DNA from: a virus
Length of the DNA: 25,739 nt
Virus record (IMG/VR): IMGVR_UViG_3300000956_000031
Span: 1 to 25,739 of that record
Direction: 5' to 3' (one strand)
The notes under the pieces were generated by a model that was not told where the DNA came from, did no database searches, and saw only the letters and a program-made list of their open reading frames with translations. Position numbers and translations under genes: made by a program. Position 1 is the stretch's first letter. Each line of letters starts with the position of its first letter. This document shows, one piece after another, positions 1-25,733 of this stretch.

Positions 1-792
1 GAGCTGCGCGCGCGATTTCCGCATCTGCGCCATCCGCCCATCAGCTTCACGTTCATCCTGGGGCTGCTCGCTGACAACAAGATCTTGCTCGAGAAAGACC
101 CCGACTATCCTGCGCGGCTACTGGCATTGCCGCGCGTCGAGCGCGAGCGCCTGCTGGGCAGCGGCAGAGGCGGCAGCTGGCTCATCCGTCCCGCCGCCGG
201 GCTGTACTTTCAGCGCAGCTGGTTCCGGGTCGTCGATGTCGCGCCCACCGACGTGGTGGCTGTGGTTCGAGCGTGGGACAAAGCCGCGACGCAAGTCACG
301 CCGCAGAGCTCCGATCCGGACTGGACGCGCGGGGTCAAGATGGCAGCCACGCGCTCGGGGCGCTTTGTCGTGCTTCACGTAGAATCGCTGCGTGGCTCGC
401 CGCACCAGGTCGACCGCGCGATGCAGAACATCGCCGCCCAAGACGGCAGCGCCGTCAAGATCTGCATCTGGCAGGACCCGGGCGGGGCGGGCGTGGTGGA
501 CGTCGCGCACATCAAGGGCATCCTGGCCGGCTATTGGGTCGAGTCGATCGTCGCGCGCGAGGACAAAGTCAGCTACGCCGGGCCGTTCTCAACCCAGGTC
601 GAGGCTGGCAACGTGGATGTACTGGCTGGCTCCTGGAACGAAGCGTTCTTGGCCGAGCTCGAGGGGTTCCCGGACGCAGCGCACGACGACATTGTCGACG
701 CGTGCTCCCGAGCGTTCCTGGCCCTTCACAAGCCGGGCGTCCTCGCGTACCAGAGCGCCATGGATGCGCTCAAGGTGGAGTTGCTGTCATGA
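1..792 (+). CDS. terL: Phage terminase large subunit, C-terminal part (cut by window edge)
   Basis: The frame is open from the first base, so only the last 263 codons are present; the ATPase domain lies outside the window. What remains looks like the RNase H-like nuclease domain that cuts concatemeric DNA during packaging. Acidic residues expected for metal binding are visible in order: AWDKA (Asp at visible residue 93), QDPGGAG (Asp 159) and HDDIVDA (Asp 229/230) near the end, followed by the typical SRAFLAL helix. The block FSTQVEAGNVDVL ahead of HDD is also typical of Terminase_6C proteins. The stop overlaps the portal start as ATGA. The order terminase-portal-MuF agrees with the call. The family is secure; the N-terminus cannot be judged. 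Confidence 0.93.
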   Translation, partial: ELRARFPHLRHPPISFTFILGLLADNKILLEKDPDYPARLLALPRVERERLLGSGRGGSWLIRPAAGLYFQRSWFRVVDVAPTDVVAVVRAWDKAATQVTPQSSDPDWTRGVKMAATRSGRFVVLHVESLRGSPHQVDRAMQNIAAQDGSAVKICIWQDPGGAGVVDVAHIKGILAGYWVESIVAREDKVSYAGPFSTQVEAGNVDVLAGSWNEAFLAELEGFPDAAHDDIVDACSRAFLALHKPGVLAYQSAMDALKVELLS

Positions 793-2456
793 AGGTGGTG
801 GGGCGCCTGGATAGCTGGATCAACGCGCTGACAGGGCTCGGGGGCTTGCGCGACAAGCTCACCTACCATCAGATCCTACCCGGGGTGCGCCTCACCGACG
901 GCGCGCTCGAGGCGCTCTACGACACCGACGACATCGCCGCCAAGATCGTCGACAAGCTGCCGCGCGACGCCACGCGACGGGGCTTTTCGCTGGAGTTCGA
1001 GGGCGACAGCGACGACGAGAGCGCCACCGCCATGCGCGCGCTGTATGCGCAGCTCGAAGACCTGGCGGTGCTGCCCAAGTTGCGCGAAGCCTGGATCTGG
1101 GCACGACTGTATGGCGCTGGCGCGGTGTACCTCGGCGCCGACGATGGGCTGCTGCCCGACGAGCCGTTGGCCGAAGACAAGATCGTAGAGGTGCGGTTTC
1201 TCAACGTGCTGAGGCGGCCGCAGCTGGAAGTGCGCAAGCGCTACAGCGACATCCATGGGCCGAAGTTCGGGCAGCCAGAACTGTACGCCGTGCGCCGCGC
1301 GGATGTCCGCAGAGACGCAGCGCTCGAGGTGCTCATCCATGAGTCGCGGTTGGTTTTTTTCCCGGGCGCTCTCACCGCGCGCAACGTGACGCAAGCCGCT
1401 GACGACTGGGATAACTCGGTGCTGCAGCGCGCGCATGATTGCCTCCGGCAAAGCGCAAGCGGCTGGCAATCAACCGCGCACCTCATGAGCGATGCAAGTC
1501 AGGCCGTGCTCAAAATCGACCACCTGTCTGAGATCATCGCGACTGGCGGGGAGGCGCGGCTGCGGGCGCGCATGGAAGTGATGGACATGGCGCGCTCGGT
1601 GTGCCGAGCGATCCTTGTTGACGCAGAGCGCGAGGAGTTCACCCGCGTCGCGACGAGCTTCGCTGGGCTGCCTGAGATCCTCGACAGGTTCATGATGCGC
1701 GACGCAGCAGCAGCCGAGATGCCGGTCGCGCTGCTCTACGGCCGATCGGCAGCCGGCTTGAACGCCACTGGCGAGAGCGACACGCGCGCCTGGTACGACG
1801 TGATCGAGGACGCGCAGAATGACGTGCTGCGCCCGCGGCTCGAGCGCGTGGTGCGGGTCTTCATGCTCGCCAAGAACGGGCCGACGCGCGGCCAAGAGCC
1901 CGAGAACTGGAAGCTCAGCTTCACGCCGCTCTGGCAGCCCACCGAGAAAGAGTCAGCTGAGACGCGCAAGATCAACGGCGACACCATCGCCACCCTGGTT
2001 CAGGCGCAGGTGATGCTACCCGAGGAGGGCGCGCTCGACCTGGCTCAGTCGGGCGACTTCTCAACGATCGACGTTGAGGCGCGCACGCAGGCGCTCGAGG
2101 TCGACAGGGAGCTTGCCGCCGACCCGGAGGGCATCGACCCGGCGACCGGGACCACCCCCGTTGCGGACGATCCCGGCGACCCCAAGGTGCAGGACACTGC
2201 GCTCAATGGGGCGCAAGTGACGTCGATGCTCGAGATCGTCACGGCGGTCGCCTCGGGGCAAATCCCCCGATCGACGGGTGTCCAGATGCTCACGCTCGCA
2301 TTTCAGATGACCACCGCTGAGGCGGAAAAGCTCATGGGCGAGACGGGTGCAGGCTTCGTTCCAGCAGCCAGCTCTGTGCCACCGCAACTGCAGCAGCCGC
2401 CGCCGCCGCCGCCGCCGCCTGCCTCGGCACCGACAGCGCCGCCGCAGGAGGAGTAA
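789..2456 (+). CDS. Phage portal protein, DUF1073 type
   Basis: A 555-residue protein expected to form the dodecameric portal at one capsid vertex, through which DNA is pumped and to which the neck attaches. The N-terminal third (LYDTDDIAAKIVDKLPRDA and WARLYGAGAVYLG) resembles DUF1073/phage_portal_3 proteins. The central part holds the usual long helices and the LYGRSAAGLNATGESD segment. The ATG at 789 is chosen because AAGGTGGAG lies about 8 bases upstream and the ATG overlaps the terminase stop; the frame is open further upstream but that part is terminase in another frame. The C-terminus is proline-rich, with eight consecutive prolines encoded by a CCG run, and is probably disordered. Confidence 0.9.
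   Translation: MKVVGRLDSWINALTGLGGLRDKLTYHQILPGVRLTDGALEALYDTDDIAAKIVDKLPRDATRRGFSLEFEGDSDDESATAMRALYAQLEDLAVLPKLREAWIWARLYGAGAVYLGADDGLLPDEPLAEDKIVEVRFLNVLRRPQLEVRKRYSDIHGPKFGQPELYAVRRADVRRDAALEVLIHESRLVFFPGALTARNVTQAADDWDNSVLQRAHDCLRQSASGWQSTAHLMSDASQAVLKIDHLSEIIATGGEARLRARMEVMDMARSVCRAILVDAEREEFTRVATSFAGLPEILDRFMMRDAAAAEMPVALLYGRSAAGLNATGESDTRAWYDVIEDAQNDVLRPRLERVVRVFMLAKNGPTRGQEPENWKLSFTPLWQPTEKESAETRKINGDTIATLVQAQVMLPEEGALDLAQSGDFSTIDVEARTQALEVDRELAADPEGIDPATGTTPVADDPGDPKVQDTALNGAQVTSMLEIVTAVASGQIPRSTGVQMLTLAFQMTTAEAEKLMGETGAGFVPAASSVPPQLQQPPPPPPPPASAPTAPPQEE
2397..2420 (+). repeat. CCG triplet run encoding polyproline in the portal tail
   Basis: Seven CCG codons followed by CCT form a short in-frame microsatellite near the 3' end of the portal gene. 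Slippage in steps of three would only change the length of a proline tract, so the frame is robust to it. Confidence 0.8.
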
Positions 2457-3439
2457 TGCGCGGGCTTGCTCGCGTTGCGCTGCAGCTCGAGTTGATGGGC
2501 CGAGTGCCCAATCGACGCAAGCGCAAGCGGGCGGTGCCCCAAGCACGGCAGCCGTCGGCGCCGCGCGTCGCGTACCTGCACGGGATCTTGCAGATGGTCA
2601 ACGCGATGCACGCTCGCGTCCGGCGCGACCTCCTGCCAGCGGTGCGCCCCATCATCGAAGCGCACAACGCGCTGCGCCCTGACGCCATAGAGCTGCGCAT
2701 TGACGCTACCGGGAGCCGCACCGCCGCCGAGATCGAGCGCATTCGAAAGGACCTCGAGCGCGAGATCCCCGAGCGCATGATTGCGCTACTGGCCGAGCAG
2801 AATGCCCTGCGCGTTGCCGAGCACAGCCGCAAGGAACTCAACCGCCAGGTGCGCACAGTCGCCAACATCGACGTGCATGCCGACCCGGCAATCCTCGCCG
2901 AGCACATCGAGGCGTTCGTCGAGGACAACGTGCGGCTTGTGAAGTCGCTAATGACCGACGAGCTCGACGCGCTCAAGGGCATCGTGCTGCGCGGCGCCCG
3001 GGCCGGGCTTCGGTACGAGGAAATCGCTGATGACATCGTCGAGAAGTTCGGCGCCACCAAGCGCCGCGCGGCGCTTATCGCTCGCGATCAGGTGACAACA
3101 CTCAACGCCGAGCTCACCCGCATCCGCCAGCAGCAGGTGGGGATCGAGCAGTACACCTGGTCCACGGTCAAGGATGAGCGCGTGCGCAAGAGCCACCGCG
3201 CGCTCGAGGGGACCACGCAGCGCTGGGACTCGCCACCCACCGTCGACGGCGAGAAAGCGCACCCCGGCCAGCCGATCAACTGCCGGTGCCAAGCCATCCC
3301 GGACGTCGACGCAGTGCTCCGCGAGGCCGGGCTGATCACCGGCACGACCGAGCCCCCGCCCGCACCCAGCACGCCGCCGCGGCGGCTGTCAGTGGTGCCG
3401 CCCCCTGAGCCCGCGCCCCGGAGGAAGCGCCGGCGGTGA
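2456..3439 (+). CDS. Minor head protein, Mu gpF / SPP1 gp7-like
   Basis: A 327-residue head morphogenesis protein. The diagnostic MuF part lies at about residues 200-285: RDQVTTLNAELTRIRQQQ, then YTWSTVKDERVRKSHRALEG, then HPGQPINCRCQAIP, with the conserved Cys-Arg-Cys. The N-terminal half is rich in charged helices and probably contacts the portal inside the head. The start ATG shares one base with the portal stop (TAATG) and is preceded by GGAGGAG. The last 35 residues are Pro/Arg-rich with no recognisable domain; there is no sign of a C-terminal toxin domain like those in some MuF proteins. This is the last + strand head gene before the antisense toxin-antitoxin cassette. Confidence 0.88.
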   Translation: MRGLARVALQLELMGRVPNRRKRKRAVPQARQPSAPRVAYLHGILQMVNAMHARVRRDLLPAVRPIIEAHNALRPDAIELRIDATGSRTAAEIERIRKDLEREIPERMIALLAEQNALRVAEHSRKELNRQVRTVANIDVHADPAILAEHIEAFVEDNVRLVKSLMTDELDALKGIVLRGARAGLRYEEIADDIVEKFGATKRRAALIARDQVTTLNAELTRIRQQQVGIEQYTWSTVKDERVRKSHRALEGTTQRWDSPPTVDGEKAHPGQPINCRCQAIPDVDAVLREAGLITGTTEPPPAPSTPPRRLSVVPPPEPAPRRKRRR

Positions 3440-3490
3440 CGTGCGCGTCCATCGGTACGAGCGGTGCTCGACGAGCTCACCGCGGCGTGA

Positions 3491-3796
3491 TCACCCCGCC
3501 TTGCGCTTCTTGGCGGCGAACTTGCCGCGGCCGAACTCGGCATCGACCCGCTCGCCCAGATACACCTTCATCAGCGACTGATAGGGCACGTCGAGCTTGG
3601 CGGCCAGTTGCTTCAGCTCCTCGAGCAGCGGCACGGGCAACCGCAGCGAGATCGAACGCGTGGGTGGCGCGTGGTCCTCATAGCGGCGTTCGGTCGCGGG
3701 ATCGGTGTAGTCAAGCGCGTTGGTCTTGGGGTCCTCCCAGAACGCGCGCTCGTCGGCTTCCGACTTGAACTTGGGCAGCTTCTTACTCTTGGCCAT
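3491..3796 (-). CDS. brnA: BrnA-family antitoxin (ribbon-helix-helix)
   Basis: A 101-residue antitoxin expected to bind and neutralise BrnT and to repress the operon. Residues 15-31 (DERAFWEDPKTNALDYT) match the BrnA N-terminal half, which contacts the toxin. Residues 48-80 (SISLRLPVPLLEELKQLA then PYQSLMKVYL) are a ribbon-helix-helix segment, placed C-terminally as in BrnA. The ATG at 3796 is preferred over a GTG at 3805, because GAGGAG lies 10 bases before the ATG but only one base before the GTG. It overlaps the end of brnT by 14 bases, so the two are co-translated. The strand is opposite to all neighbouring head genes. Confidence 0.9.
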   Translation of the reverse strand: MAKSKKLPKFKSEADERAFWEDPKTNALDYTDPATERRYEDHAPPTRSISLRLPVPLLEELKQLAAKLDVPYQSLMKVYLGERVDAEFGRGKFAAKKRKAG

Positions 3797-4088
3797 AGTG
3801 CTCACGCTCCTCTTTCCTCATCGCCCGCGCTGAGATGACACGCACCAGCGTGCCGCGTACGGTGAAAGCCACCGTCAACAGGCGGCCGCTATCAGTTCGC
3901 CCGAACGCCAGAGTGCGCACTTCATCGCCGACGCCGTAGGTCTCGCGAAACAACACCGGGCGATTGCTGAACACCTGCTCGGCCTCGGCCTGGCTGACGC
4001 CGTGCTTGTCAGCGCTCTTGCGCTCGTTGCCCGCGTCCCACTGGAACCCGGTGCAGCCGGCGAGATCGGTGGGGAATCGGTACGTCAC
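3783..4088 (-). CDS. brnT: BrnT-family ribonuclease toxin
   Basis: A 101-residue protein with the BrnT layout: FQWD at residues 15-18, KHGVS at 28-32, an acidic AEAEQVF helix, a central EVRTLAFGRTDSGRLLTVAFTVRG sheet region (about 56-79), and the C-terminal ISARAMRKEEREHY (85-98). BrnT proteins are RelE-fold ribonucleases that arrest translation until bound by BrnA. All conserved blocks are present, so it looks intact. The only plausible start is GTG at 4088; no Shine-Dalgarno sequence precedes it, and the predicted promoter would start the mRNA at or next to this GTG. The stop lies inside brnA. As a phage-carried cassette it may act in lysogen stability or superinfection exclusion; that is inference. 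Confidence 0.9.
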   Translation of the reverse strand: MTYRFPTDLAGCTGFQWDAGNERKSADKHGVSQAEAEQVFSNRPVLFRETYGVGDEVRTLAFGRTDSGRLLTVAFTVRGTLVRVISARAMRKEEREHYGQE

Positions 4089-4094
4089 AAGATT

Positions 4095-4122
4095 AGTATA
4101 TCACAGCGATATACAGCGTCAA
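4095..4122 (-). promoter_or_regulatory. brnTA promoter with dyad operator
   Basis: Read on the - strand, TTGACG (4122-4117) and TATACT (4100-4095) are separated by 16 bases, each one mismatch from the sigma-70 consensus. A perfect inverted repeat, GTATAT (4096-4101) and ATATAC (4109-4114) with a 7-base spacer, covers the -10 box and spacer. It is an AT-rich island in an otherwise GC-rich region. BrnA antitoxins autoregulate, so this is the natural operator candidate. The -10 box ends 6 bases before the brnT GTG. Confidence 0.75.
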
Positions 4123-4190
4123 GCGCATCCGGCCCAGCCATTGCCACCCACACCGGCGCAGCTAGAGGTGTAGTCCCGTAGCGTGCAGGC

Positions 4191-4228
4191 TTGACACCCC
4201 AAAAAGCCGCGCATACCAGCGGCTCGTG
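4191..4228 (+). promoter_or_regulatory. Shared promoter/operator-like element, copy A
   Basis: TTGACA lies exactly 35 bases before the GTG start of the DUF2213 gene. It is followed by a 22-base block (4207-4228, core GCATACCAGCGGCTCGTG) identical to the block before the gp25-like gene at 16003-16024. The block contains a small dyad, GCCGC / GCGGC (4206-4210 and 4219-4223). There is no Shine-Dalgarno sequence. A weak upstream resemblance (TAGCG..CAG) extends the similarity. The role is inferred: a phage promoter, operator or leaderless start signal. Confidence 0.6.
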
Positions 4229-5407
4229 CGCGTCAACCGCTTCGACGTAGCTGAGATCGGTAGGCCCGTCCGGACCCCGCAAGGCTTTATCCGGGTGCCC
4301 GCGTTCCTGACGCGGGCTGGCGTCCTTGAGTACAAGCGCGCCGACGGGAGCACCGTCCGCGAGCTGCGCCATCCCGACGAGGTGTTTCGACCCGACTCGC
4401 TAGCGTCGCTGTCGGCTGCGCCGCTCACCGATCTGCACCCCAAGGAGATGGTCAGCCCCAAGAACGTCCGCTCGCTGCGGGTGGGGCATGTCGGCGAGGC
4501 GGTGCGGCAGGACGGCCACCGGGTCGCCGCGACTGTCACGATCGAAGACGAGCAGGTGATCGCCGCGGTCGAGCGCGGCGACCGGCGCGAGATCAGCTGC
4601 GGCTATGCCTGCGCGATCGACGCGACCCCGGGCGAATGGAACGGGCAGCACTACGACGCGGTGCAGCGCGACATCGTGTACAACCACGCCGCGCTCGGGC
4701 CGCGCAACTGGGGACGCGCAGGTAGCGAAGTTGCGCTGCGCCTGGACTCTGGCGACGCGATGACCGCGTCCGCCCTTGGTGCGCCGCCAGAGCGGCGGGA
4801 CGACGGGCTCGGTGACCCGTCGGGAGGTGACGCGGAAATGGATAACGTAACGATTCGAGTGGATGGGCTCGACGTCCAGCTGCCCAAGCAATGGGCGCAG
4901 GTCGTCGAGTTGGCGATCAGCAAGCGGGATGCATCGCTTGCCGAGCGCACCAAGGAGCGCGACGCTGCGCAGGGCCGCCTCGACGCGCTCGCAAAAGAGC
5001 ACGACGAGCTCAAGACGAAGCTGGCGGCAGCCGATGATCCCAAGCGCCTGGACGCTGCGGTTCATGCACGCGCGACGCTGATCGAGCAAGCGCGCAAGGT
5101 GCTGCCAGCCGAGCACAAGTTCGACGGCCAAACCCCACGTCAGGTGCATGAGGCGGTGCTCAAGCAGCTCGACCCCAAGCTCGACCTCGCGGGCAAGAGC
5201 GACGAGTACATCGCCGCCCGCTTCGATCACGCTGTAGAGACTGCTGCGTCCAGCCAACCGGCCACCCGCAGCACATCGCTTGACCGCTCACGGGTGGTCA
5301 CCACGCAGTCAGTCTCTCGCATTCAACCAGCCACCGCACGGCAGGATGCTGCTGCCTATGTGCCCGAGTGGATGAAGCCGCTCGCGACGAGCAAGGACCG
5401 GCACTGA
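4226..5407 (+). CDS. DUF2213 phage protein: prohead protease with C-terminal scaffold
   Basis: 393 residues. Residues 10-180 carry DUF2213 signatures (RTPQGFIRVPAFLTRAGVL, ELRHPDEVFRPDSL, LTDLHPKE, REISCGYACAID, NHAALGPRNWGRAG). By position just before the capsid genes and by the His 71 / Ser 124 (SCGY) pattern, it is likely the head maturation protease, although catalysis is inferred. After a Gly/Asp-rich linker (about 185-205), the rest is helical with a coiled coil (about 230-275, ERTKERDAAQGRLDALAKEH), typical of scaffolding. The GTG at 4226 is the first start after an in-frame stop at 4163 and lacks a Shine-Dalgarno sequence. It sits right behind the antisense brnTA cassette and inside the shared regulatory element. 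The gene ends in TGATG with the next gene. Confidence 0.8.
   Translation: MRVNRFDVAEIGRPVRTPQGFIRVPAFLTRAGVLEYKRADGSTVRELRHPDEVFRPDSLASLSAAPLTDLHPKEMVSPKNVRSLRVGHVGEAVRQDGHRVAATVTIEDEQVIAAVERGDRREISCGYACAIDATPGEWNGQHYDAVQRDIVYNHAALGPRNWGRAGSEVALRLDSGDAMTASALGAPPERRDDGLGDPSGGDAEMDNVTIRVDGLDVQLPKQWAQVVELAISKRDASLAERTKERDAAQGRLDALAKEHDELKTKLAAADDPKRLDAAVHARATLIEQARKVLPAEHKFDGQTPRQVHEAVLKQLDPKLDLAGKSDEYIAARFDHAVETAASSQPATRSTSLDRSRVVTTQSVSRIQPATARQDAAAYVPEWMKPLATSKDRH
4838..5407 (+). CDS. Nested scaffold protein from an internal in-frame start (probable)
   Basis: Within the DUF2213 gene and in the same frame, ATG at 4838 is preceded by GGGAGGTGA ending 7 bases upstream. This is one of the best ribosome binding sites in the window. 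It would give a 189-residue product starting MDNVTIRVDGLDVQLPKQW and containing the coiled coil, but not the protease domain. Separate production of scaffold from a protease gene is known in lambda (C/Nu3). The start falls exactly at the junction between the linker and the scaffold domain, supporting independent translation. It is not proven. Confidence 0.6.
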   Translation: MDNVTIRVDGLDVQLPKQWAQVVELAISKRDASLAERTKERDAAQGRLDALAKEHDELKTKLAAADDPKRLDAAVHARATLIEQARKVLPAEHKFDGQTPRQVHEAVLKQLDPKLDLAGKSDEYIAARFDHAVETAASSQPATRSTSLDRSRVVTTQSVSRIQPATARQDAAAYVPEWMKPLATSKDRH

Positions 5408-5892
5408 TGCAACTCTCATACGAATACGCGCAGCCGGTGGCGGTCCTCGGGTTAGTCACCGAGGACTTCACCAAATACACCGACACCGTGATCCCACAGG
5501 TCACGGTCAAGATCGGCAAGTTGCTCACAGCAGATAAGACTGCCGGCAAGGTCCGCAACGCAGCGAAGTTGCCGGAGGCAGCAGCCGACGTCACCAAGCC
5601 CGGGGCGATGGGCATCACGTTCCTTGATTCCACCCGCGAGGGTGGCGACGACTACCCGGCAGCGCGGCCCATCGGAGTGATCCGACGCGGCCGGGTCTGG
5701 GTGCTGGCTGAGTCTGCTGTCGCGCGCTGGACGCACCCGTTCGTGCGCTTCGCCGCCGGTGCAGGCGGCACTGAGCTCGGCAGCTTCCGGGGCGACGTGG
5801 ACACCGCCTCAGCGGCGGAGCTGACGCACGCCATCTTTCTCACCGACGCCGGCGCGGGCGAACTCGTGTTGGTCGAGATCGACCTGTTCTAA
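5407..5892 (+). CDS. Capsid decoration / structural cement protein
   Basis: A 161-residue, beta-rich protein lying between protease/scaffold and major capsid genes, where head decoration or cement proteins usually sit. The central part (KPGAMGITFLDSTREGGDDY, then ARPIGVIRRGRVWVLAE) resembles the cement-protein pattern in which a short internal motif is followed by a statement of pseudo-constant beta strands. It would coat and stabilise the expanded capsid. The start ATG at 5407 overlaps the preceding stop (TGATG), with AAGGA about 10 bases upstream; the frame is open further upstream but that part belongs to the DUF2213 gene. The family assignment is moderate; the role rests mainly on position. 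Confidence 0.65.
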   Translation: MQLSYEYAQPVAVLGLVTEDFTKYTDTVIPQVTVKIGKLLTADKTAGKVRNAAKLPEAAADVTKPGAMGITFLDSTREGGDDYPAARPIGVIRRGRVWVLAESAVARWTHPFVRFAAGAGGTELGSFRGDVDTASAAELTHAIFLTDAGAGELVLVEIDLF

Positions 5893-5915
5893 GACGCGCG
5901 AAGGAGACCACCACC

Positions 5916-6992
5916 ATGCTCGTCCAACTGCAAACACTGTCGCCCTACAACCGAGACCAGATCGCGGGCGAACTCAGCCGGCTTTCGAGCGAGCGCCTAG
6001 ACGCCGTCGAACTCGATCGCATCTACACAGCGATGATCGTGCACCGCGCCGAGCTCTACGGAGCCGATCGGCTCGACGCCAACGAGACCATGATTCTCGA
6101 GAACCAGCTCGAGCAGATGCGCGCGCGCTCTGTTGACGTGCAGCGCCCCGAGTTCAAGGCGCGGCGCCTGGTGCCCGTCACCTCGGAGATCGACCCGGGT
6201 GCCGAGTCCTGGGCGTATTCGGTCTGGGATCGCGCCGGTATGGCCAAGGTCGTCGCGAACTATGCCGACGACATCCCCAAGGTCGCCACGTTCGCGAAGA
6301 AGTACACGCACACGATCGAGACCATCGCACTCGGCTATGAGTGGAGCTGGCTTGACCTGCTGCGCACCGCGCGCGCAGGTATCCCGCTGCGCGCTCGCAA
6401 GGCAGACGCAGTGCGCACGGGCTTTGAGCAGAAGATCGAGGAGATCGCCGCCGTCGGCATCAAAGAGACGGGCCTCACCGGCCTGCTCAACAACGCCAAC
6501 GTGCCTCAGATCAACGCAGCGCCGCCCGGCACCGGGAGCTCGTCTGCGTGGGACGGTGGGGACAAAACGCCGTCTGAAGTCCTCGCCGACCTGGTCGCGA
6601 TGGAAGATGCAATCATCACCACCACCAAGGGCGTGCACGGCCCCGACACGTTGGTGTTGCCGCTCGCGCAATACCGCTACATCAGTCGCACGCCGCTCTC
6701 CACCGTCGCGACTGCGGACCCCAAGGACACAATCTTGAAGGTGTTCCTCGAGCAATCCGAGGCCGTGCGCAACGTGGACTGGTGGCACTTCGCCGCCACT
6801 GCTGACGGCGGCAATCCGCGCGCAGTCATGTACCCGCGCAATCCGTCGGTGGTGCACCTCGAGATCCCGCAAGAGCAGCAGGAGCTCCCGCCGCAGCACA
6901 AGAACCTATCGTTCGAAGTCAACTCAGTCGGGCGCATCGGCGGCGTGGCGTTCGAGTACCCGCTCGGCGCCGTCTACATGGATGGGATTTGA
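5916..6992 (+). CDS. Major capsid protein, DUF2184 type
   Basis: 358 residues. It resembles DUF2184 major capsid proteins (HK97 fold), with the N-arm YNRDQIAGELSRLSSERLDA, the central stretch SWAYSVWDRAGMAKVVANYADDIP, the VGIKETGLTGLLNN loop near residue 185-198, and the C-terminal segment GRIGGVAFEYPLGAVYMDGI. It builds the icosahedral shell. AAGGAG lies 10 bases before the ATG, the clearest ribosome binding site in the head block, fitting the need for high expression. It is separated from the cement gene by 23 bases rather than overlapping it. There is no obvious N-terminal delta domain, consistent with a separate scaffold. Confidence 0.9.
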   Translation: MLVQLQTLSPYNRDQIAGELSRLSSERLDAVELDRIYTAMIVHRAELYGADRLDANETMILENQLEQMRARSVDVQRPEFKARRLVPVTSEIDPGAESWAYSVWDRAGMAKVVANYADDIPKVATFAKKYTHTIETIALGYEWSWLDLLRTARAGIPLRARKADAVRTGFEQKIEEIAAVGIKETGLTGLLNNANVPQINAAPPGTGSSSAWDGGDKTPSEVLADLVAMEDAIITTTKGVHGPDTLVLPLAQYRYISRTPLSTVATADPKDTILKVFLEQSEAVRNVDWWHFAATADGGNPRAVMYPRNPSVVHLEIPQEQQELPPQHKNLSFEVNSVGRIGGVAFEYPLGAVYMDGI

Positions 6993-6994
6993 TC

Positions 6995-7366
6995 ATGGCG
7001 AACCAAGTCACGATTCGAAACAAGACAGCCCACGTCAAGCAGATGCAGCTTGGCAATGGGCAGTCCATCACCGTCCCGCCTACTGCCGAAGGGTCTCCCG
7101 GCCTCACTGTGACATTCGAGAGCGACAAAGAGCGCGAGCGGTTCGAAGCCGCGCTCGGCAGCAAGGTCGTCAAGCGCTGGATCGAGCGCAAGGAGCTCGA
7201 GGTCGAGGGCGGCAAGACTGAAGGCAGCAAGACCGAGAGCGGCACGCCCGAGGGCGCGTCACCGGCATCGAAACAGACAGCACCGCCGCCATCGCCACCA
7301 CCCGCGCCGAGCCCGCCAGAACCCACGCCAAGTCGACACTTCGGCCGCCGAGGCGAGAGGGAGTAA
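6995..7366 (+). CDS. Small head-associated protein, unknown function
   Basis: 123 residues starting MANQVTIRNKTA at ATG 6995, two bases after the capsid stop; a TTG at 6989 in frame would add two residues and overlap the capsid gene. Residues 1-70 look like a small folded domain (VTFESDKERERFEAALGSKVVKRW), followed by a low-complexity Gly/Lys/Glu then Pro/Ser tail ending HFGRRGERE. I do not recognise a family. Its place between the major capsid protein and the head-tail connector suggests a capsid accessory or connector role; that is inference from gene order only. Confidence 0.6.
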   Translation: MANQVTIRNKTAHVKQMQLGNGQSITVPPTAEGSPGLTVTFESDKERERFEAALGSKVVKRWIERKELEVEGGKTEGSKTESGTPEGASPASKQTAPPPSPPPAPSPPEPTPSRHFGRRGERE

Positions 7367-7372
7367 ACGCGC

Positions 7373-7663
7373 GTGGCCGTCACCGTCGCACAGATCAAGG
7401 CTGAGTTTCCGGAGTTCGCGAACACGAGCGACGCGCTCATCGCTGCCAAGATCTCCGACGCGTCTGGGCAACTCTATCCAAGCGGATGGGGAGCCGGCTA
7501 CGACCAGGCGGTGAAGTACCAAGCCTGCCATCTGATCGCGTGCTCGCCGGGTGGCGAGTTCGCGCGCCTCGATCCAGCAAAGGAGCCCGACGGCGCGAGC
7601 ACGCTGTACGAGCGTCGTTACAACGCGCTGCAGCAATCCGTCGTCGGAGCCATGGTTGTGTGA
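7373..7663 (+). CDS. Head-tail connector, DUF4054-like
   Basis: 96 residues, starting at GTG 7373 with GAGGGAG about 11 bases upstream. The pattern TVAQIKAEFPEFANTSDALIAAKISDAS, then YDQAVKYQACHLIACSPGGEF, is that of DUF4054/gp6-type adaptors: a helical bundle that forms the ring below the portal. The usual C-terminal helix with a tyrosine (LYERRYNALQQS) is present. The stop overlaps the next start (TGATG). Its position after the capsid gene and before the completion protein agrees with the call. Confidence 0.8.
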   Translation: MAVTVAQIKAEFPEFANTSDALIAAKISDASGQLYPSGWGAGYDQAVKYQACHLIACSPGGEFARLDPAKEPDGASTLYERRYNALQQSVVGAMVV

Positions 7664-8172
7664 TGAGTGGCGCGACCCTCAAAGTCACCGACAAGGACGC
7701 GGGGTGGGACGCCCTCAAAGACCGCGTGCTCAAGCTGTCGGCGCCCGGCGCGTACGCTCTCGTCGGCGTGCAGGGGCAGCAAGCCGCGAGCGCGCATCGT
7801 GCAGCTGCGCCCATGACCGTGGTCGATCTCGCAGTGGTGCACGAGTTCGGCAAAGTCATCCACAAAGAGGATGGCACTGAAATCGTGATTCCACAGCGCA
7901 GCTTCATCCGCGCCACCATCGACGAGTATGCCCCCAAGCTGCAGCGCACCGCGTCGGCGCTGGGGCAGGGCGTGCTGATCGGCAAGTTCCAGACGCGCCA
8001 GGCGCTCGAGCTGCTCGGGCAGCAAGGCGTGGGGCTCATCCAGCAGCGGATCGCCGATGGCATCCCGCCTCCCAACGCGGATTCGACGAAAGCTCGGAAG
8101 GGTTCGAGCACACCGCTCGTCGACACCGGGCAGCTGCGCGGCTCGATCACCCATCGCGTCGAGGGCGGCTGA
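7663..8172 (+). CDS. Head-tail joining / tail completion protein (HK97 gp10- or Mu gpG-like)
   Basis: 169 residues starting MSGATLKVTDKD. The arrangement VVHEFGKVI ... IPQRSFIRATIDEY ... LLGQQGVGLIQQRIADGIPPP ... PLVDTGQLRGSITHRV is characteristic of gp10/gpG-type morphogenesis proteins: a G-containing beta strand with PxRSF, a long helix, and the closing DTGQLR.SI. The member closes the neck or terminates the tail tube. The ATG overlaps the connector stop; the frame is open upstream, but that part overlaps DUF4054 coding and is not typical. The following gene begins on the last base of this stop codon. Confidence 0.82.
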   Translation: MSGATLKVTDKDAGWDALKDRVLKLSAPGAYALVGVQGQQAASAHRAAAPMTVVDLAVVHEFGKVIHKEDGTEIVIPQRSFIRATIDEYAPKLQRTASALGQGVLIGKFQTRQALELLGQQGVGLIQQRIADGIPPPNADSTKARKGSSTPLVDTGQLRGSITHRVEGG

Positions 8173-8735
8173 TGGATTGGCAGCTTCTACACGATGGCCT
8201 CCGGCAATGGTTCGCTGATGTTAGCGGCGTGGCCCTCACTGAGATCGCGTGGGCCGGCGACCCGGTGGGCATGCGCAGCTATCCCTGGGCCGAGCTCACG
8301 CTGCTCGGGCAATCGGCCGAGCCCAGCACCGACGAGGTGCGCGCCACTGCTCTGGGCGATGACCTTGCGATCGAGGTGGTCGGCAATCGCCGCCTGACGC
8401 TCAGCTGCAAGATCGTCTCGCGTGACCAGCGCCCGGCCTACCGTGCGTATGCGCTGCTCGAGCGGGTGCGGGGGCGGCTGTACTTCCCATCTTCCCAAGC
8501 GACATTCCGCGGGCTCGGCGTGGGGCTGCGCGAGAGTCTTGCGCTCGTCGACCTCGGTCGCACGCACGACCAGCGTCAGGAGTCGGTGGCGTCGCTCGAC
8601 GTCGCATTCAACTGGGTTGATGCCCAGACCGATGCTCCCGTCGGGACCATCGGGAGCGTCGTGGTGGGGGGCACCGTGAAGCGCGACCCTGCGGATGCCG
8701 ACCCCATCATCATCGCCGAGCATGCCATTCCCTAG
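8172..8735 (+). CDS. Phage neck terminator protein, gp12-like
   Basis: 187 residues. The middle part (TLSCKIVSRDQRPAYRAYALLERVRGRLYFP) and the C-terminal RQESVASLDVAFNWVDAQTD match the neck terminator type found just upstream of sheath genes in DUF3383 phages. It would cap the tail tube at the neck. The ATG overlaps the previous stop (TGATG). The C-terminus (IGSVVVGGTVKRDPADADP) resembles the usual ending of the family. The family is recognised by pattern and position; residues essential for function are not known. Confidence 0.75.
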   Translation: MDWQLLHDGLRQWFADVSGVALTEIAWAGDPVGMRSYPWAELTLLGQSAEPSTDEVRATALGDDLAIEVVGNRRLTLSCKIVSRDQRPAYRAYALLERVRGRLYFPSSQATFRGLGVGLRESLALVDLGRTHDQRQESVASLDVAFNWVDAQTDAPVGTIGSVVVGGTVKRDPADADPIIIAEHAIP

Positions 8736-8747
8736 GAGGCATATGCC

Positions 8748-10070
8748 ATGAGCAGCGCGTCGGAAGTCGTTACCGTAACTATCGAGATCAAGGATGCCGC
8801 TGTCTCGCAGGCAGGCTTCGGCACTCCGCTCATCGCCGGCTACCATACGTACTGGCCCGAACTCGTCCGGACCTTTTCAGATCCCGACGAGATGACGCTC
8901 GCGCCGATGAGCATGCCGACCACCCATCCGATCTACCGCACCGCGCTGGCGCTCAAGTCGCAGAACCCGTGCCCGGCGCAGTTCAAGGTCGGCAAGTGCG
9001 CAGGCGTCACCAAGCAGACGGTGAGCCTCACCCCAAACACGCCGATCAGCGGCGAAGTGTTTAGCCTCGAAGTGGATGGCATCGCCGTGGTTGTCACCGC
9101 AAGCGCGGTCCCCACCATAGCGGAGATCACCGCCGCATTGGCTGCCGACATCAACACTGATGTTCCGGGCGTGACAGCAACCGATAGCCCCACCGCTGTC
9201 ACGGTGGAGGCCGATGAAGACGCCGAAGTCCATCGCTATGAAAACCTGTCGCCGAATCTCACACTCAAAGACGACACCCCCGACTCAACGACGGGGATCG
9301 CCGCCGATCTCACTGCCATTCGCGCCTATGACGCGGATTGGTATGGGTTGCTGCTGGATGACAGCAGCGCTGCGGTGATCACGGCTGCCGCCGCGTGGGC
9401 TGAGGCGCAGCGCGTGATCCTGTTCGTCAATCCGAGCGACTCTGAGATCAAGAACGGCTCAGTCACCGATGACGTCGGCAGCGACCTGAAAACTGCTGGC
9501 TACAACCGGACTGTGCCGCTCTACCACGGCAAGCCGAGTCAGTGCGCTGCAGCTGCGTGGGCGGGGCGCATGCTGCCCAAGGCGCCGGGCTCTGCGACGT
9601 GGGCCAACAAGAGCCTCGCCGGCGTGGACAAGTCGCCGCTCAGCGACACCGACCGCGGCGTGCTCAAGGACAAGAACGTCAACTACTATGTCGATGTGAA
9701 GGGGATCGGGTTCACGCTCGATGGCCGCGCAGCATCGGGCCGGTACATCGACATCACGCACGGCATCGATTGGTTCGACGCACGCGTGAGCGAGCGCATC
9801 GTGGCGCTGCTAGCCAACAACGACAAGGTCGCCTACACCGACAAAGGCATCGAACTCGTGCGCGGCCAAGTGCTCGGGCAGATCCTCGAAGGCATTAGCG
9901 CGACGCTGATCGATGGCGCTGCGCCCTACTCGGTGACGGTTCCGAAGGTGGCCGATATCAACCCCAACGATCGCACCGGGCGCATCTTGCCTGACGTCAA
10001 GTTCAGCTTCGTGCTGCAGGGCGCGGTGCATAAGGTGCTCATCTACGGGACCGTCCGCACGGCTTTGTAG
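8748..10070 (+). CDS. Tail sheath protein, DUF3383
   Basis: 440 residues. It begins with a variable N-terminal region and an inserted Thr/Ala-rich domain (about 85-180), then shows the sheath core: IRAYDADWYGLLLDD, WAEAQRVILFVNPSD, WAGRMLPKAPGSATWANKSLAGV, LKDKNVNYYVDVKGIGFTLDGRA and GHYIDI-like GRYIDITHGIDWFDAR. The C-terminal part (IELVRGQVLGQILEG ... VLIYGTVRTAL) provides the strands that link neighbouring subunits. This makes the tail contractile. TAGGAGG lies 10 bases before the ATG. The family is secure. Confidence 0.93.
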   Translation: MSSASEVVTVTIEIKDAAVSQAGFGTPLIAGYHTYWPELVRTFSDPDEMTLAPMSMPTTHPIYRTALALKSQNPCPAQFKVGKCAGVTKQTVSLTPNTPISGEVFSLEVDGIAVVVTASAVPTIAEITAALAADINTDVPGVTATDSPTAVTVEADEDAEVHRYENLSPNLTLKDDTPDSTTGIAADLTAIRAYDADWYGLLLDDSSAAVITAAAAWAEAQRVILFVNPSDSEIKNGSVTDDVGSDLKTAGYNRTVPLYHGKPSQCAAAAWAGRMLPKAPGSATWANKSLAGVDKSPLSDTDRGVLKDKNVNYYVDVKGIGFTLDGRAASGRYIDITHGIDWFDARVSERIVALLANNDKVAYTDKGIELVRGQVLGQILEGISATLIDGAAPYSVTVPKVADINPNDRTGRILPDVKFSFVLQGAVHKVLIYGTVRTAL

Positions 10071-10081
10071 GAGAGGTTGCT

Positions 10082-10519
10082 ATGGGATTCAAAGACTGGA
10101 ACATCAACGACCTCGCCATCAGCCTCAATGCGATCCCGCTCGACGACGGCGGCTACGCCGATGACGAGGTGTTCAGCCTCGAGTGGGACGACTCGCAGTT
10201 CCTCGACTTCACTGGCGCCGACGGCGAGGTCTCGCGGTACGCCACCAACAACTTCAAGGCGTTCGTAACGCTGCGCTATGCCAACACCGCCAACGCCAAT
10301 GATCGGCTGAGCTCGATGCTGCAGACCGATTTGAGCTTGCCCAACGGCGCCGGCGCGGGCGTGTTCAATGCGCGCGACAAAGAGGGGCGCCTGGTGGTGC
10401 TCTCTGAGCGCTCATGGATCACGGGCTTTCCGGCATACAAAGCAGGCAAGGCGGTGCAGGTCATCGAGTGGAAGATTCGACTAGCCGACGCGCGCGGCAG
10501 CTTCTTCGGCGGGCGGTAG
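10082..10519 (+). CDS. Tail tube protein, DUF3277
   Basis: 145 residues (MGFKDWNINDLAISLNAIPL ... VIEWKIRLADARGSFFGGR), matching DUF3277 tail tube proteins that stack as hexameric rings inside the sheath. It lies right behind the sheath gene, as usual, with GGAGAGG before the ATG. The conserved ending W.I....GSFFGG is present. Confidence 0.88.
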   Translation: MGFKDWNINDLAISLNAIPLDDGGYADDEVFSLEWDDSQFLDFTGADGEVSRYATNNFKAFVTLRYANTANANDRLSSMLQTDLSLPNGAGAGVFNARDKEGRLVVLSERSWITGFPAYKAGKAVQVIEWKIRLADARGSFFGGR

Positions 10520-10523
10520 CCGC

Positions 10524-11051
10524 ATGGCGATCGAAGCCCGCGAGAAGCGCATCGGCGAGCACACCTACCGCGTGACGCAGTTCGGCGCCAAGCAGGGGAG
10601 GGGCCTATTGGTTCGCCTGCTCAAGCTGGCTGGCCCGAGCCTTGGCGCAACACTCAGCAGCCTCGCCCAGGGCAAGCATACGGAGGTCGAGGCGGCGCTG
10701 GCGGCGGGATTGAGTCAAGGGCTCTACGAACTGGCAGACCGCTTGAACGAGGCGGAGGTGGCCGCGGTGCTCGACGACTTTGCCAAGCAGACTGTTATCG
10801 TGATCGGCGATCGCGAGCCACGCTTGTCTGACGTGTTCGACGCGCATTTTGCAGGCAAGTATGACGAGATGCTGCTCTGGGCGAGGTTCTGTTTGGAGGT
10901 GAACTACGCGAGTTTTTTCGTCGGGTCGAACGGCGGCCCCGGCCTAATCGGTCGGATCCAGAACGTGCTGTCAGCATCGCCGTCCCCGAGCGCATCGACT
11001 GGGACATCCACCGCGTCGCCACCAGCGCGAGGTACCATTCCGGTCTCGTAG
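10524..11051 (+). CDS. Tail assembly chaperone, zero-frame product
   Basis: 175 residues between tube and tape measure genes, where chaperones that coat the tape measure normally sit. The first part (ARQKRIGEHTYRVTQFGAKQG-like start, then LLVRLLKLAGPSLGATLSSLA) and the end of the folded part (DVFDAHFAGKYDEMLLWARFCLEVNYASFF) agree with the family. The remaining 40-odd residues are Ser/Thr/Pro/Ala low complexity, which suggests an out-of-phase read-through of sequence better used in the -1 frame. The stop at 11051 leaves 97 bases to the tape measure start, unlike the tight junctions elsewhere. Confidence 0.75.
   Translation: MAIEAREKRIGEHTYRVTQFGAKQGRGLLVRLLKLAGPSLGATLSSLAQGKHTEVEAALAAGLSQGLYELADRLNEAEVAAVLDDFAKQTVIVIGDREPRLSDVFDAHFAGKYDEMLLWARFCLEVNYASFFVGSNGGPGLIGRIQNVLSASPSPSASTGTSTASPPARGTIPVS
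10913..10919 (+). promoter_or_regulatory. Candidate -1 ribosomal slippery site T TTT TTC
   Basis: In the chaperone zero frame, codons TTT (10914) and TTC (10917) are preceded by T, giving the canonical X XXY YYZ heptamer in exact phase. A 6-bp stem CCGGCC / GGTCGG (one G-U pair) with a 5-base loop lies at 10939-10955, somewhat further downstream than usual. Third-position G/C suggests the zero frame is still favoured until about 10970, so a different slip point is possible. Confidence 0.5.
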
Positions 11052-11152
11052 AAATCCAAACCGCATGGTCGCTCGATGACCTGTATGAGGCCCACGACGT
11101 GCTGGACATGTACGAAGATCTCGAGCACCTGGCTGCGCGGAGTCGGTCATGA
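10919..11152 (+). CDS. -1-frame extension of the tail assembly chaperone
   Basis: This frame has no ATG, GTG or TTG start in its first two-thirds, yet it encodes a plausible globular sequence: PERIDWDIHRVATSARYHSG, then LVEIQTAWSLDDLYEAHDVL, then DMYEDLEHLAARSRS. Its codons from about 10970 have strongly G/C third positions, and its stop (11150-11152) forms an ATGA overlap with the tape measure start, matching other junctions here. A -1 slip in the preceding gene would give a fusion of about 209 residues, the pattern of lambda G/GT-type chaperones. An indel in the assembly is the main alternative. Confidence 0.65.
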   Translation, partial: RRVERRPRPNRSDPERAVSIAVPERIDWDIHRVATSARYHSGLVEIQTAWSLDDLYEAHDVLDMYEDLEHLAARSRS

Positions 11153-12930
11153 CGGTGCTGCGCGAGATCGTCGCGCGTCTTGGCTTCGAGGTCGATAAGA
11201 CGGGGTTCCAAGCCGCCGAGCGCGGGATCGCGCAGGTGCAGACGCAGCTCGCCGCGACAAGCAAGAAGCTCGGCGTCGTGGGCTCGGCAGCGACAGCGGC
11301 AGGTAGTCGGGTGGCCAGTGCGGGCGGCAGGTTCGCCGCGACGGGCAAGGCTGCAGCTAGCAGCCGGGCGGGCATGGCGGTCGCTGCGACCGGGGCCTCA
11401 GCGTTCGGCGGTGCGCTCGGCAAGCTGGTCGCGGCTGCGGGCATCACGCAGACCCTTCGGTCGATCGTTCAGCTTGCGTCCGATGCGAACGAGACGGGCA
11501 ACGTGCTCGAGCAGGTGTTCGGTGCGGAGGGCGCCGGCCAGGTCAAGAGCTGGTCGCAAGCAGCCTCGTCAAACCTGGGGCGCTCGCGCTTTCAGCTGCA
11601 GGAGTTCGCAGGCGGGCTCGGCGCGATGCTCGACCCGATGGTGCAGAACAAAGGCAAAGCGCAAGAGATGAGCACGACCCTCGCCACGCTTGCCGTGGAC
11701 CTCGGGAGCTTCTTCAACGCGACCGATCAGGATGCGCTCGTCGCACTGCGCGCTGGCATCTCGGGAGAGAGCGAGCCGCTCAAGCGCTTCGGCATCGTCA
11801 TGCAGGACGCGACGCTGCAGGAGTTCGCGCACACGCAGGGCATCCGCAAGAAAATCAGCGCGATGAATGTCGCCGAGAAGACCGATCTCCGCTATCAGTT
11901 CATCCTCGCGCGCACCAAGAACGCGCAGGGCGACGCGGCGCGCACCTCTGGCGGCTTTGCTAACTCGAGCAAAGCGCTCAAAGGGGCCCTGCGCGATCTC
12001 GGTACGGAGATGGGGCAAAAAGCCATGCCCGTGCTCGAGCGGATTGTGGCGGGCGCATCCAAAGCGGTGGAGCTGTTCAAGGATTGGACGAAGGGTACGC
12101 ACGCGCTCGAGATTGCCATGGGGCTCCTCGGTGCCGCTGCCTTCGCGCTCGGAATGAAGATGCTCGCGCCGTTCATCGTGCCCGCAGCCGCGGCGCTCGC
12201 ACTGTTCCTGATCGTCGATGAGCTCTTCAACCTGTTTTCGGGCGGCAAGAGCGTCATCGGCGACTACATCGAGGCGGTCGGTGGCCTGGGCACTGTCGAC
12301 GAAATGGTCCGCAACCTCGCGGCGGGCGTCGACATCCTCGCCGAGTCGTGGCGCAACCTGTGGGCAGGCGCGGACACAGGAAAGCTGCAAGAGCAGATCG
12401 GTTGGTTCGGCGAGCTCGAGCTGGCTGGCGAGCGCATGTACAACCTCTATGTCCGACTCGCCACTGCGGTCGCGGATTTTATTTGGAACCTGCCCGGCGG
12501 CGGCGCCATGTGGGGCCTGCAACGAGGGATTTCCTCGAGCGAGCGCGCTGCCGGCCAAGGGGTCAATGCTCCGCTCATGACTCCCGAGCAGGCGCGCCAG
12601 CAGGGGCTGAAAGAGAAGGCTGCCGACATCACCGCAGAACGCAACGCGACGAAAGCCGGTCGAGCCCTCGGGCGCGGTGTCAACGCGCCGGTGGAGGAAA
12701 TCCGATACGGCCGCGCGTCGCCCTCTGCGGTTGGCGCCTCGCCAACGGTGAGCGCCCCTGCCGCACCGACCAGCACGACGCCGCCGGTGGTCGTGCAGTC
12801 GGGCAACACGACCGTCACCATCAACGTGAACGGCGGCAACCCCGCCGACGTCCGCCGCGCTCTGCTCGACGCTCTGGCAGCCGAGCGCCGCAAGAACAAC
12901 GCCGCGCTGGCGCGTCCCGGGAGTAGCTGA
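11149..12930 (+). CDS. Tail tape measure protein
   Basis: 593 residues, the longest tail gene, at the expected place after the chaperone. Residues 1-100 are Ala/Gly/Ser-rich helical sequence. Residues about 110-310 contain the conserved block around FGAEGAGQVKSWSQAASSNL, GGLGAMLDPMV, LGSFFNATDQDALVALRAG and ESEPLKRFGIVM, typical of phage and SLT-less tape measures. Hydrophobic segments at about 322-360 may contact or cross the membrane on injection. The last 120 residues are disordered, ending in TVTINVNGGNPADVRRALLD. The length suggests a fairly short contractile tail. No lytic domain was recognised. Confidence 0.9.
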   Translation: MTVLREIVARLGFEVDKTGFQAAERGIAQVQTQLAATSKKLGVVGSAATAAGSRVASAGGRFAATGKAAASSRAGMAVAATGASAFGGALGKLVAAAGITQTLRSIVQLASDANETGNVLEQVFGAEGAGQVKSWSQAASSNLGRSRFQLQEFAGGLGAMLDPMVQNKGKAQEMSTTLATLAVDLGSFFNATDQDALVALRAGISGESEPLKRFGIVMQDATLQEFAHTQGIRKKISAMNVAEKTDLRYQFILARTKNAQGDAARTSGGFANSSKALKGALRDLGTEMGQKAMPVLERIVAGASKAVELFKDWTKGTHALEIAMGLLGAAAFALGMKMLAPFIVPAAAALALFLIVDELFNLFSGGKSVIGDYIEAVGGLGTVDEMVRNLAAGVDILAESWRNLWAGADTGKLQEQIGWFGELELAGERMYNLYVRLATAVADFIWNLPGGGAMWGLQRGISSSERAAGQGVNAPLMTPEQARQQGLKEKAADITAERNATKAGRALGRGVNAPVEEIRYGRASPSAVGASPTVSAPAAPTSTTPPVVVQSGNTTVTINVNGGNPADVRRALLDALAAERRKNNAALARPGSS

Positions 12931-12931
12931 G

Positions 12932-13699
12932 GTGGCAAACCGGCACGTCGAGATCGGCGACATCTGGATCGATGTCTCGGTCCGGGAGGGGCACGCCCTC
13001 ACGGCGGAAGTGACCGAGCATCCCGTCGAAACCGGCGCGGCTGTAGCCGATCACATCCGGCGCATGCCCGACACCATCGACATCGACGGCGTGGTCACCA
13101 ACCACCCCGTGGAGCTTCCCAAGTCGCACGTCGGGACGTCGCGCGTCAACCCGAGCCCCATCGAGATCGAAGGGGAACCGTCACTCGGTTCGATCGGATT
13201 GGTACCGGGCGCCGAGCAAGTAGCTGCGCTGCTCGGCGCGCTCAAGCTCGACGTGCGCACCAAGCGCGTGTTTTCGGCCAGCGTCCTGCACTTCACCGAG
13301 CCCTTTGATCGGGTGAGCGCAGTGCACGCCGCGCTCGTGTCGATCTTCGAGCGTCGCGCTCTGGTCACCGTCGTGACTGGACTCATGACCTATAAGAACG
13401 TGGCGCTGACCGCCCTCCACATCGAGCGCACCAGCGAAGCGGGGCAGGGGCGCCTCAACTTCTCGGCGTCCGGGCGAGTGCTGCGCATCGTCAGCAGCCA
13501 GGCGGCCGACCCTCCCGATCCGGTCGACGCGCGCGCCAAGCCGAAGAAGTCGCGCGGTAAGCAGCCCACCCAACCTGTCAGCCCGCCCCCGCCGAGCCTG
13601 GTCGCGCCCGGCGACACCGACAAGCAGAGCCTGCTCTCGAAGGCTGGGGAGATCTCGGTGGCCGACATCTTCAAGAAGATACTTGGGATGGGGTCCTGA
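12932..13699 (+). CDS. Dit-like baseplate/tail protein
   Basis: 255 residues starting at GTG 12932, one base after the tape measure stop. The N-terminal part (VSVREGHALTAEVTEHPVETGAAVADHIRRMPDTIDIDGVVTNHP) matches the Dit-like phage tail N-terminal domain, which forms a ring at the tail tip. A second beta-rich part with TGLMTYKNVALTALHIERTSEAGQGRLNF closes it. After residue 190 comes a Pro/Lys linker and a short amphipathic end (VADIFKKILGMGS). It is followed immediately by the baseplate plug gene, consistent with assembly of the tube-baseplate junction. Confidence 0.78.
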   Translation: MANRHVEIGDIWIDVSVREGHALTAEVTEHPVETGAAVADHIRRMPDTIDIDGVVTNHPVELPKSHVGTSRVNPSPIEIEGEPSLGSIGLVPGAEQVAALLGALKLDVRTKRVFSASVLHFTEPFDRVSAVHAALVSIFERRALVTVVTGLMTYKNVALTALHIERTSEAGQGRLNFSASGRVLRIVSSQAADPPDPVDARAKPKKSRGKQPTQPVSPPPPSLVAPGDTDKQSLLSKAGEISVADIFKKILGMGS

Positions 13700-13701
13700 A
13701 C

Positions 13702-14022
13702 ATGGGCATACGACTCATCCCAGTTGAGAGTTACCCCGACGCGACGCAGCAGTCCACGCTCGACGGTGTCACCTATACTTTTCGCTTCCGGTGGAACGAG
13801 CGGGGCGCCTGCTGGCACATGGATCTCTCGACGCTCGACGGCACGCCGATCGCGATGGGCGTGCGCCTGGTGACGCGCTTCCCGCTACTGCGCCGCAACT
13901 TGCACCCCGAGCGGCCGCCGGGCGAGCTGGTTCTGCTCGACGGCCAGGCGCGCGACGGCAACGCGACGTTCGCGGAGTTCGGGACGCGGTACTGCCTGCA
14001 CTACATCGAGGCGCTGTCATGA
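13702..14022 (+). CDS. Phage baseplate plug protein
   Basis: 106 residues (MGIRLIPVESYPDATQQSTL, then YTFRFRWNERGACWHMDLST, then GELVLLD). The order of a short N-terminal strand, a Q..TLDG..Y.F...WN motif, a Trp-containing strand and a GxLxLLD near the end match the baseplate plug family (DUF6983). It would close the tube until the baseplate opens. The stop overlaps the hub gene start (ATGA). Confidence 0.82.
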   Translation: MGIRLIPVESYPDATQQSTLDGVTYTFRFRWNERGACWHMDLSTLDGTPIAMGVRLVTRFPLLRRNLHPERPPGELVLLDGQARDGNATFAEFGTRYCLHYIEALS

Positions 14023-15978: not shown

Positions 15979-15986
15979 CGCAGCGC

Positions 15987-16024
15987 TTGACCCCGTCTCG
16001 GTCCGCGCATACCAGCGGCTCGTG
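15987..16024 (+). promoter_or_regulatory. Shared promoter/operator-like element, copy B
   Basis: TTGACC lies 35 bases before the GTG start of the gp25-like gene, exactly as copy A is placed before the DUF2213 gene. The 22 bases from 16003 to 16024, including GTG, are identical to 4207-4228. The inner dyad CCGC / GCGG is retained. There is no Shine-Dalgarno sequence. This gap is the only break in an otherwise overlapping baseplate gene run. Confidence 0.6.
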
Positions 16025-16399
16025 TCGGACCTGGCGCTCGATCCTGCGACTGGCGACCTGGACTTGCAGCAAGGCGCTGCGCGCTTGTGTCAGGGTGCCG
16101 AGGCCGTAGCGCAGCTCTGGGCGTTCCACGTCACGATGTTCCGCGGCGAATGGTTCCAGGATCGCTCGCTCGGCATCGACTACCAGCACGACATCCTCGA
16201 GAAGGGTGTCAATCCCGCGGTGGTGCGCGCGATCTTCGCGACTGCGACGCGCGCAGTGCCAGGCGTCGCTGACGTGCGCGACATGCGCCTGAGCCTCGAC
16301 CGCACCACCCGGACGCTGACAGTCCGAGCCGAGGCGGTGCTCAGCAACGGGCAGGATGCGTCGCTCGGACTGACAGAGACGATCGGGGGATCGTCATGA
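16022..16399 (+). CDS. Baseplate wedge protein, gp25/GPW-like
   Basis: 125 residues: SDLALDPATGDLDLQQGAAR, then EAVAQLWAFHVTMFRGEWFQDRSLGIDYQHDIL, then a C-terminal half with VRAIFATATRAVPGVADVRD and strands ending in LTVRAEAVLSNG. This is the gp25/GPW fold (DUF2634-type) present in every contractile injection apparatus, where it starts sheath assembly on the baseplate; the GEW motif is conserved. The GTG at 16022 is aligned with the family start and is preceded by the shared regulatory element and no Shine-Dalgarno sequence. The stop overlaps the J-like gene (ATGA). Confidence 0.88.
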   Translation: MSDLALDPATGDLDLQQGAARLCQGAEAVAQLWAFHVTMFRGEWFQDRSLGIDYQHDILEKGVNPAVVRAIFATATRAVPGVADVRDMRLSLDRTTRTLTVRAEAVLSNGQDASLGLTETIGGSS

Positions 16400-19866: not shown

Positions 19867-19882
19867 GGAGGCAACCTCCGCC

Positions 19883-25690: not shown

Positions 25691-25692
25691 AT

Positions 25693-25733
25693 TCTTAATC
25701 CATTGGCCGGTGGTTCGAATCCACCATGACCCA
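25693..25733 (+). tRNA. tRNA-Lys(CTT) 3' half, probable prophage attachment site
   Basis: From the anticodon loop to the discriminator base: TCTTAA with anticodon CTT (25694-25696), anticodon stem 3' arm TCCAT, 5-base variable region, T stem GGTGG / CCACC with loop TTCGAAT (25709-25725), acceptor 3' arm ATGACCC and A. The 5' half (expected to begin GGGTCAT) is absent upstream, so this is a partial copy of the kind left at attP or attL/attR. No CCA is encoded; CCG follows the discriminator. Confidence 0.78.

Follow-up and report, generated by a model that had tools for sequence, protein, structure and literature searches.

The stretch of DNA analysed here (25,739 nucleotides, hereafter the window) is a fragment, 25.7 kb in length, from the record of an uncultured virus. 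Its gene content is that of a contractile-tailed phage, with genes for a portal, a Mu F-like head protein, a protease, a cement protein, the major capsid protein, and the neck, sheath, tape measure, and baseplate. A megablast search of the window against phage records returned no match, and all of its protein matches among these records are below 60% identity. Two of its virion genes begin directly after copies of the same short element (sites A and B), and a candidate third copy (site C) lies in the terminase gene:

725..730, + strand: -35-like element TTCACA of candidate site C, in the terminase gene (CTT CAC A), found by the matrix built from sites A and B only
748..753, + strand: -10-like element TACCAG of candidate site C, 17 bp 3' of the -35-like element
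760..792, + strand: candidate leaderless mini-ORF of 10 codons (ATG to TGA) sharing the terminase frame; it begins 6 nt 3' of the candidate -10, and its TGA overlaps with the portal start codon at 789 (ATGA)
789..2456, + strand: portal gene (PF06381, 2e-80), start assigned from its overlap with the terminase stop
4191..4196, + strand: site A -35 element TTGACA; TTGAC is kept at the DUF2213 gene of relatives
4207..4228, + strand: 22-nt block of copy A, identical to the copy B block and ending in the GTG start codon
4214..4219, + strand: site A -10-like element TACCAG, 17 bp 3' of the -35; T-A-n-C is kept in relatives
4226..5407, + strand: DUF2213 head maturation protease gene (PF09979, 2.9e-42; phrog_530, 1.4e-89), GTG start 6 nt after the site A -10
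15987..15992, + strand: site B -35 element TTGACC, from the pattern scan and comparison of the copies
16003..16024, + strand: 22-nt block of copy B, identical to the copy A block and ending in the GTG start codon
16010..16015, + strand: site B -10-like element TACCAG, 17 bp 3' of the -35
16022..16399, + strand: gp25-like baseplate wedge gene (phrog_120, 2.4e-20), GTG start 6 nt after the site B -10

TTGAC begins at 4191 in copy A and at 15987 in copy B, in both cases 35 bases before the GTG (4226 and 16022), as the first-pass annotation had described together with the identity of the last 22 bases (4207-4228 and 16003-16024). This block is the longest exact direct repeat of the window, compared to a maximum of 19 in 200 dinucleotide shuffles. 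At up to three mismatches, GCATACCAGCGGCTCGTG occurs in the window only at sites A and B (0.13 expected), and TTGAC-N17..19-TASCRG has two matches (0.03 expected). The same annotation had assigned the copies to two different genes, a DUF2213 protease and a gp25 baseplate wedge, which the PF09979, phrog_530, and phrog_120 matches support. It also correctly described both starts as lacking a Shine-Dalgarno sequence, whereas many neighbouring genes carry one (at 2456, 3436, 5916, 8748, 10082, and 19883), and as following a break in the gene run, which consists of an antisense BrnT gene before A and a 43-nt gap before B. The former is a BrnT-like toxin gene (3786-4122, - strand), whose position is occupied by HicA/HicB in relative G003 (L075:16190-16830) and by a small AAA-type gene in G029.

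Searching a viral collection yielded approximately 30 related contigs of uncultured soil phages, mostly metagenome fragments, in which the repeat is kept before the DUF2213 and gp25-like genes; since these contigs share descent, the copies they carry are not independent observations. The first-pass annotation had regarded absence of the repeat before the same two genes in all relatives as part of the grounds for abandoning its proposal, and the search thus left the proposal standing. Across 2.9 million viral contigs, TTGAC-N14-CGCATACCAGCG has 36 exact matches, 34 of which lie 3-6 nt before a DUF2213 or gp25 gene and two elsewhere. Among close-clade contigs long enough to hold both genes, G001-G007, G021, G023, and G025 each contain exactly two TTGAC-N17..19-TASCRG matches, always at DUF2213 and gp25. 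Among the listed relatives of 44% protein identity or more, all have TTGAC before DUF2213 apart from L152 (51% identity), in which the element is absent, as it is in still more distant relatives. Distant relatives with approximately 44-55% DUF2213 identity keep the layout with TAACAG, TACCTG, TAGCAG, TACCAC, TATCAA, or TAGCGG as the -10. Distant relatives that retain copy A (G029, G030, G031, and G039) have no copy B upstream of gp25, so that A is probably the older copy and B is specific to a subclade. No convincing second site was found in the TATCAA lineage, and, apart from sites A, B, and C, no exact copy of the CGCATACCAGCG block with the form of a promoter exists in the complete relatives. 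In L012, three TTGACCC motifs at 13-14 bp steps precede copy B upstream of gp25 (~9290-9340).

The layout consists of TTGAC(A), then TACCAG after 17 or, rarely, 18 bp, and then GTG or ATG after a further 5-7 nt. Among 37 distinct copies, the spacer between the -35 and the -10 measures 17 bp in 31 and 18 bp in six, and the distance from the -10 to the start codon is 5-7 nt in all; the outer spacer is almost free in sequence and CGCATACCAGCG is near-fixed. The scan pattern demands TTGAC and TAnC, so that their full conservation is partly by construction, and the list of DUF2213 genes, which was not selected by the scan, shows the same conservation at these positions. Like sigma70-type promoters, the element has a -35 near TTGACA (TTGAC in the 37 distinct copies) and a spacer within 16-18 bp. 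It departs from TAnnnT in that TA is kept but no copy ends its -10 with T. As in leaderless genes, a TA-like -10 lies about 12 bp before the start codon (its first T is 12 bp before the GTG in the window and 11-13 bp before the start in relatives), and a Shine-Dalgarno sequence is absent. A consensus promoter scan of window positions 1-20000 listed none of sites A, B, and C; sites of this kind escape standard promoter predictors.

Two further readings of the repeat concern the transcript or the protein rather than the promoter. AYQRL is in frame with the GTG in both window copies, as it would be in a shared N-terminal coding sequence or after recent recombination between the loci, yet we regard this origin as extremely improbable. 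The frame upstream of the DUF2213 start is shifted or stopped in L015, L016, L020, L022, and L025, which rules out a coding repeat for this gene, and because this frame is not conserved, the conservation does not serve the protein. In addition, neither window GTG has an in-frame ATG, GTG, or TTG upstream, and both copies occur in diverged genomes with differing spacers. An RNA-level element, transcribed from upstream and controlling translation of both genes, would adjoin the start codons at a near-fixed distance, as the repeat does. However, TTGAC and the 17-18 bp to the TA are kept while the spacer is mostly free, as is typical of a -35/-10 promoter, the consensus fold has three pairs and zero compensatory changes, and a Shine-Dalgarno sequence is lacking, making such an element very unlikely. 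A shared RNA structure was rejected, as there is neither covariation nor a common fold.

We therefore consider it likely that the element is a compact virion-gene promoter that yields leaderless mRNA, because of the 12-bp distance to the start codon, the strong -35 at the right spacing, the missing Shine-Dalgarno sequence, and the resemblance to the geometry of the BrnT gene, which also lies in the window and has a leaderless arrangement with a near-consensus -10 (TTGACG-16-TATACT-6-GTG). From the conserved sequence, spacing, and gene context we infer promoter activity, and with it the start point, leaderless translation, and timing. RNA polymerase would read TTGAC(A) as the -35 and TACCAG, 17 bp apart, as the -10, and the 5-7 nt discriminator would place the first transcribed base at the first base of the GTG or ATG, within ~1 nucleotide. 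Ribosomes would then initiate directly on the start codon at the 5' end, in the absence of a Shine-Dalgarno sequence. Within the long virion operon, site A may restart expression of the head genes (protease, cement, and major capsid) and site B that of the baseplate, and timed expression of virion genes is plausible. If so, ~38 bp would serve as both promoter and start site and restart virion expression within a packed operon. Counting against this model, the sixth -10 base is never T, unlike the TANNNT of known leaderless genes, and copies are missing where the distant relatives lack B before gp25 and L152 lacks the element before DUF2213.

The -10 without a final T bears on which form of the polymerase reads the sites, and recognition could require a factor from the phage or the host. 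The promoter may overlap with an operator or activator site bound by a phage regulator, with a phage protein reading CGCATACCAGCG and the weak -10 depending on it. This arrangement, which would be compatible with the promoter reading, seems possible but doubtful. It would account for the missing final T, for conservation that extends past the -10 hexamer (CGCA before, CG after), and for the almost invariant CGC-N6-GCG within the TACCAG group. On the other hand, the dyad is short. The CCGC..GCGG pairing noted in the first-pass annotation is present in the window, but across relatives only the three inner pairs are kept and the outer pair forms in just 8 of 18 aligned copies, so that a dyad operator was rejected for lack of a conserved inverted repeat. 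Of the promoter/operator combined with a leaderless start that had been proposed there, the promoter with its leaderless or near-leaderless start has the best support, given the fixed spacing of -35, -10, and start codon across diverged relatives whose spacers vary over most of their sequence, and the operator is not supported. Further points against a regulator are that the block has no exact extra copies elsewhere in complete relatives, and that similar -10s (TAGCGA and TAGCAG) precede leaderless-type genes in G029, which suggests ordinary recognition of such -10s. In that relative (L199, L197), these are two additional TTGAC-18-TAGCAG / TAGCGA sites before other genes. A search for sigma70 region 4 also speaks against it: in ten relatives, the Sigma70_r4 profile gave no match above the cut-off, and a phage sigma factor was rejected, although a novel factor could still exist.

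The third site had been missed in the first-pass annotation. A matrix built from sites A and B alone and run over 14 genomes recovered one further site in all nine genomes with a recognisable terminase end, of the form TTCACA (TTGCGA in G029)-17-TACCAG-6-ATG. This site outranks all other non-A/B positions with scores of 15.7-30.3; unrelated sites reach at most 11.2, and 30 shuffles at most 14.2. It is located in the last terminase codons (window 725-762), and in the nine genomes its ATG opens an ORF of 10-12 codons that ends at the portal start. Conserved terminase protein sequence that merely resembles a promoter is a serious alternative with a considerable chance of being right, though we lean away from it. 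In a wider, unselected terminase set, the site C pattern is found in the close clade and, as TTGCCA or TTGCGA, in a sister group; other terminases without the pattern still keep the Tyr-Gln and Ala-Met residues (YQxAM), and L228 and L229 use CTG in place of CTT. Protein constraint thus accounts for part of the conservation. Against a purely protein-based origin, the -35 lies on CTT, a leucine codon with a share of 8%; of 134 degenerate codon columns whose residue is conserved, this is the only one in which all nine genomes have the same rare codon. The matrix scores also exceed those of unrelated and shuffled sequence. Since Tyr-Gln and Ala-Met persist in terminases without the -35, we regard site C as a probable rather than an established third copy of the promoter. 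Such a copy at the end of the terminase gene would probably produce a leaderless ORF of 10-12 codons that hands ribosomes to the overlapping portal start, and would mean that coding sequence can accommodate the promoter together with a leaderless entry ORF. More tentatively, and with low confidence, the three sites might form a virion regulon with one promoter type, in which A and B sit on the start codons of the protease and baseplate genes, C is hidden in the terminase frame and feeds the portal through stop-start coupling from a leaderless terminase-tail ORF of 10-12 codons, and a modified or phage-assisted polymerase reads the TAnC -10 without its final T.

Leaderless late phage mRNAs and start-linked repeats are already known. 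The middle and late mRNAs of the Thermus phage phiYS40 are leaderless and translated from a 5' start codon (PMC3594737, a review), as proposed for the transcripts here. Phage and host are unrelated in the two cases, and the element described here combines a -35 close to consensus with an extended -10 block common to its copies and would serve only two to three virion transcription units. Leaderless promoters have also been predicted in mycobacteriophages (PMC4351075). Those of Cluster O are predicted to be SigA-like; our element differs by a -10 without the final T, and, unlike in Cluster O, near-identical copies precede two unrelated genes. In bacterial leaderless genes, a TA-like -10 is located ~12 bp before the start codon (PMC3160421; PMC12340547). 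The TANNNT leaderless genes of Actinobacteria and Deinococcus-Thermus share this distance and the lack of a Shine-Dalgarno sequence with our element, which differs by a G, A, or C as the sixth base, a strong -35, and an extended conserved block. The Start-Associated Sequences (SAS/ESAS) of Cluster K mycobacteriophages (PMC3203893) are likewise repeated directly upstream of start codons, in genes unrelated to one another, and are kept throughout the cluster. The SAS is GGGATAGGAGCCC, with a core that we read as Shine-Dalgarno-like, and the ESAS contains inverted repeats; our element has neither such a core nor a conserved inverted repeat, its sequence differs, and it occurs at two to three sites per genome instead of before many genes. 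The literature searched contained no report of this element. What appears to be new is a putative clade-specific promoter with a -10 lacking the last T that precedes two or three virion genes, with one copy apparently residing in coding sequence.

When genome contigs were searched for a host with the DUF2213 profile, only four relatives, all distant (28-39% identity), were recovered; the element is absent from the three of these genome-contig relatives that were checked, and L121 is also without it. Near the end of the window (25692-25733), a sequence resembling the 3' half of a tRNA-Lys(CTT) was recognised on visual inspection, an arrangement like that of phage attachment sites; at up to three mismatches, it had no match in 398 Pseudomonadota genomes. 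Several relatives encode integrases. Finally, a sequence of 171 nt is present in three diverged direct copies, ~840 bp apart, within the gene for an 866-aa virion protein (window 20015-21862).
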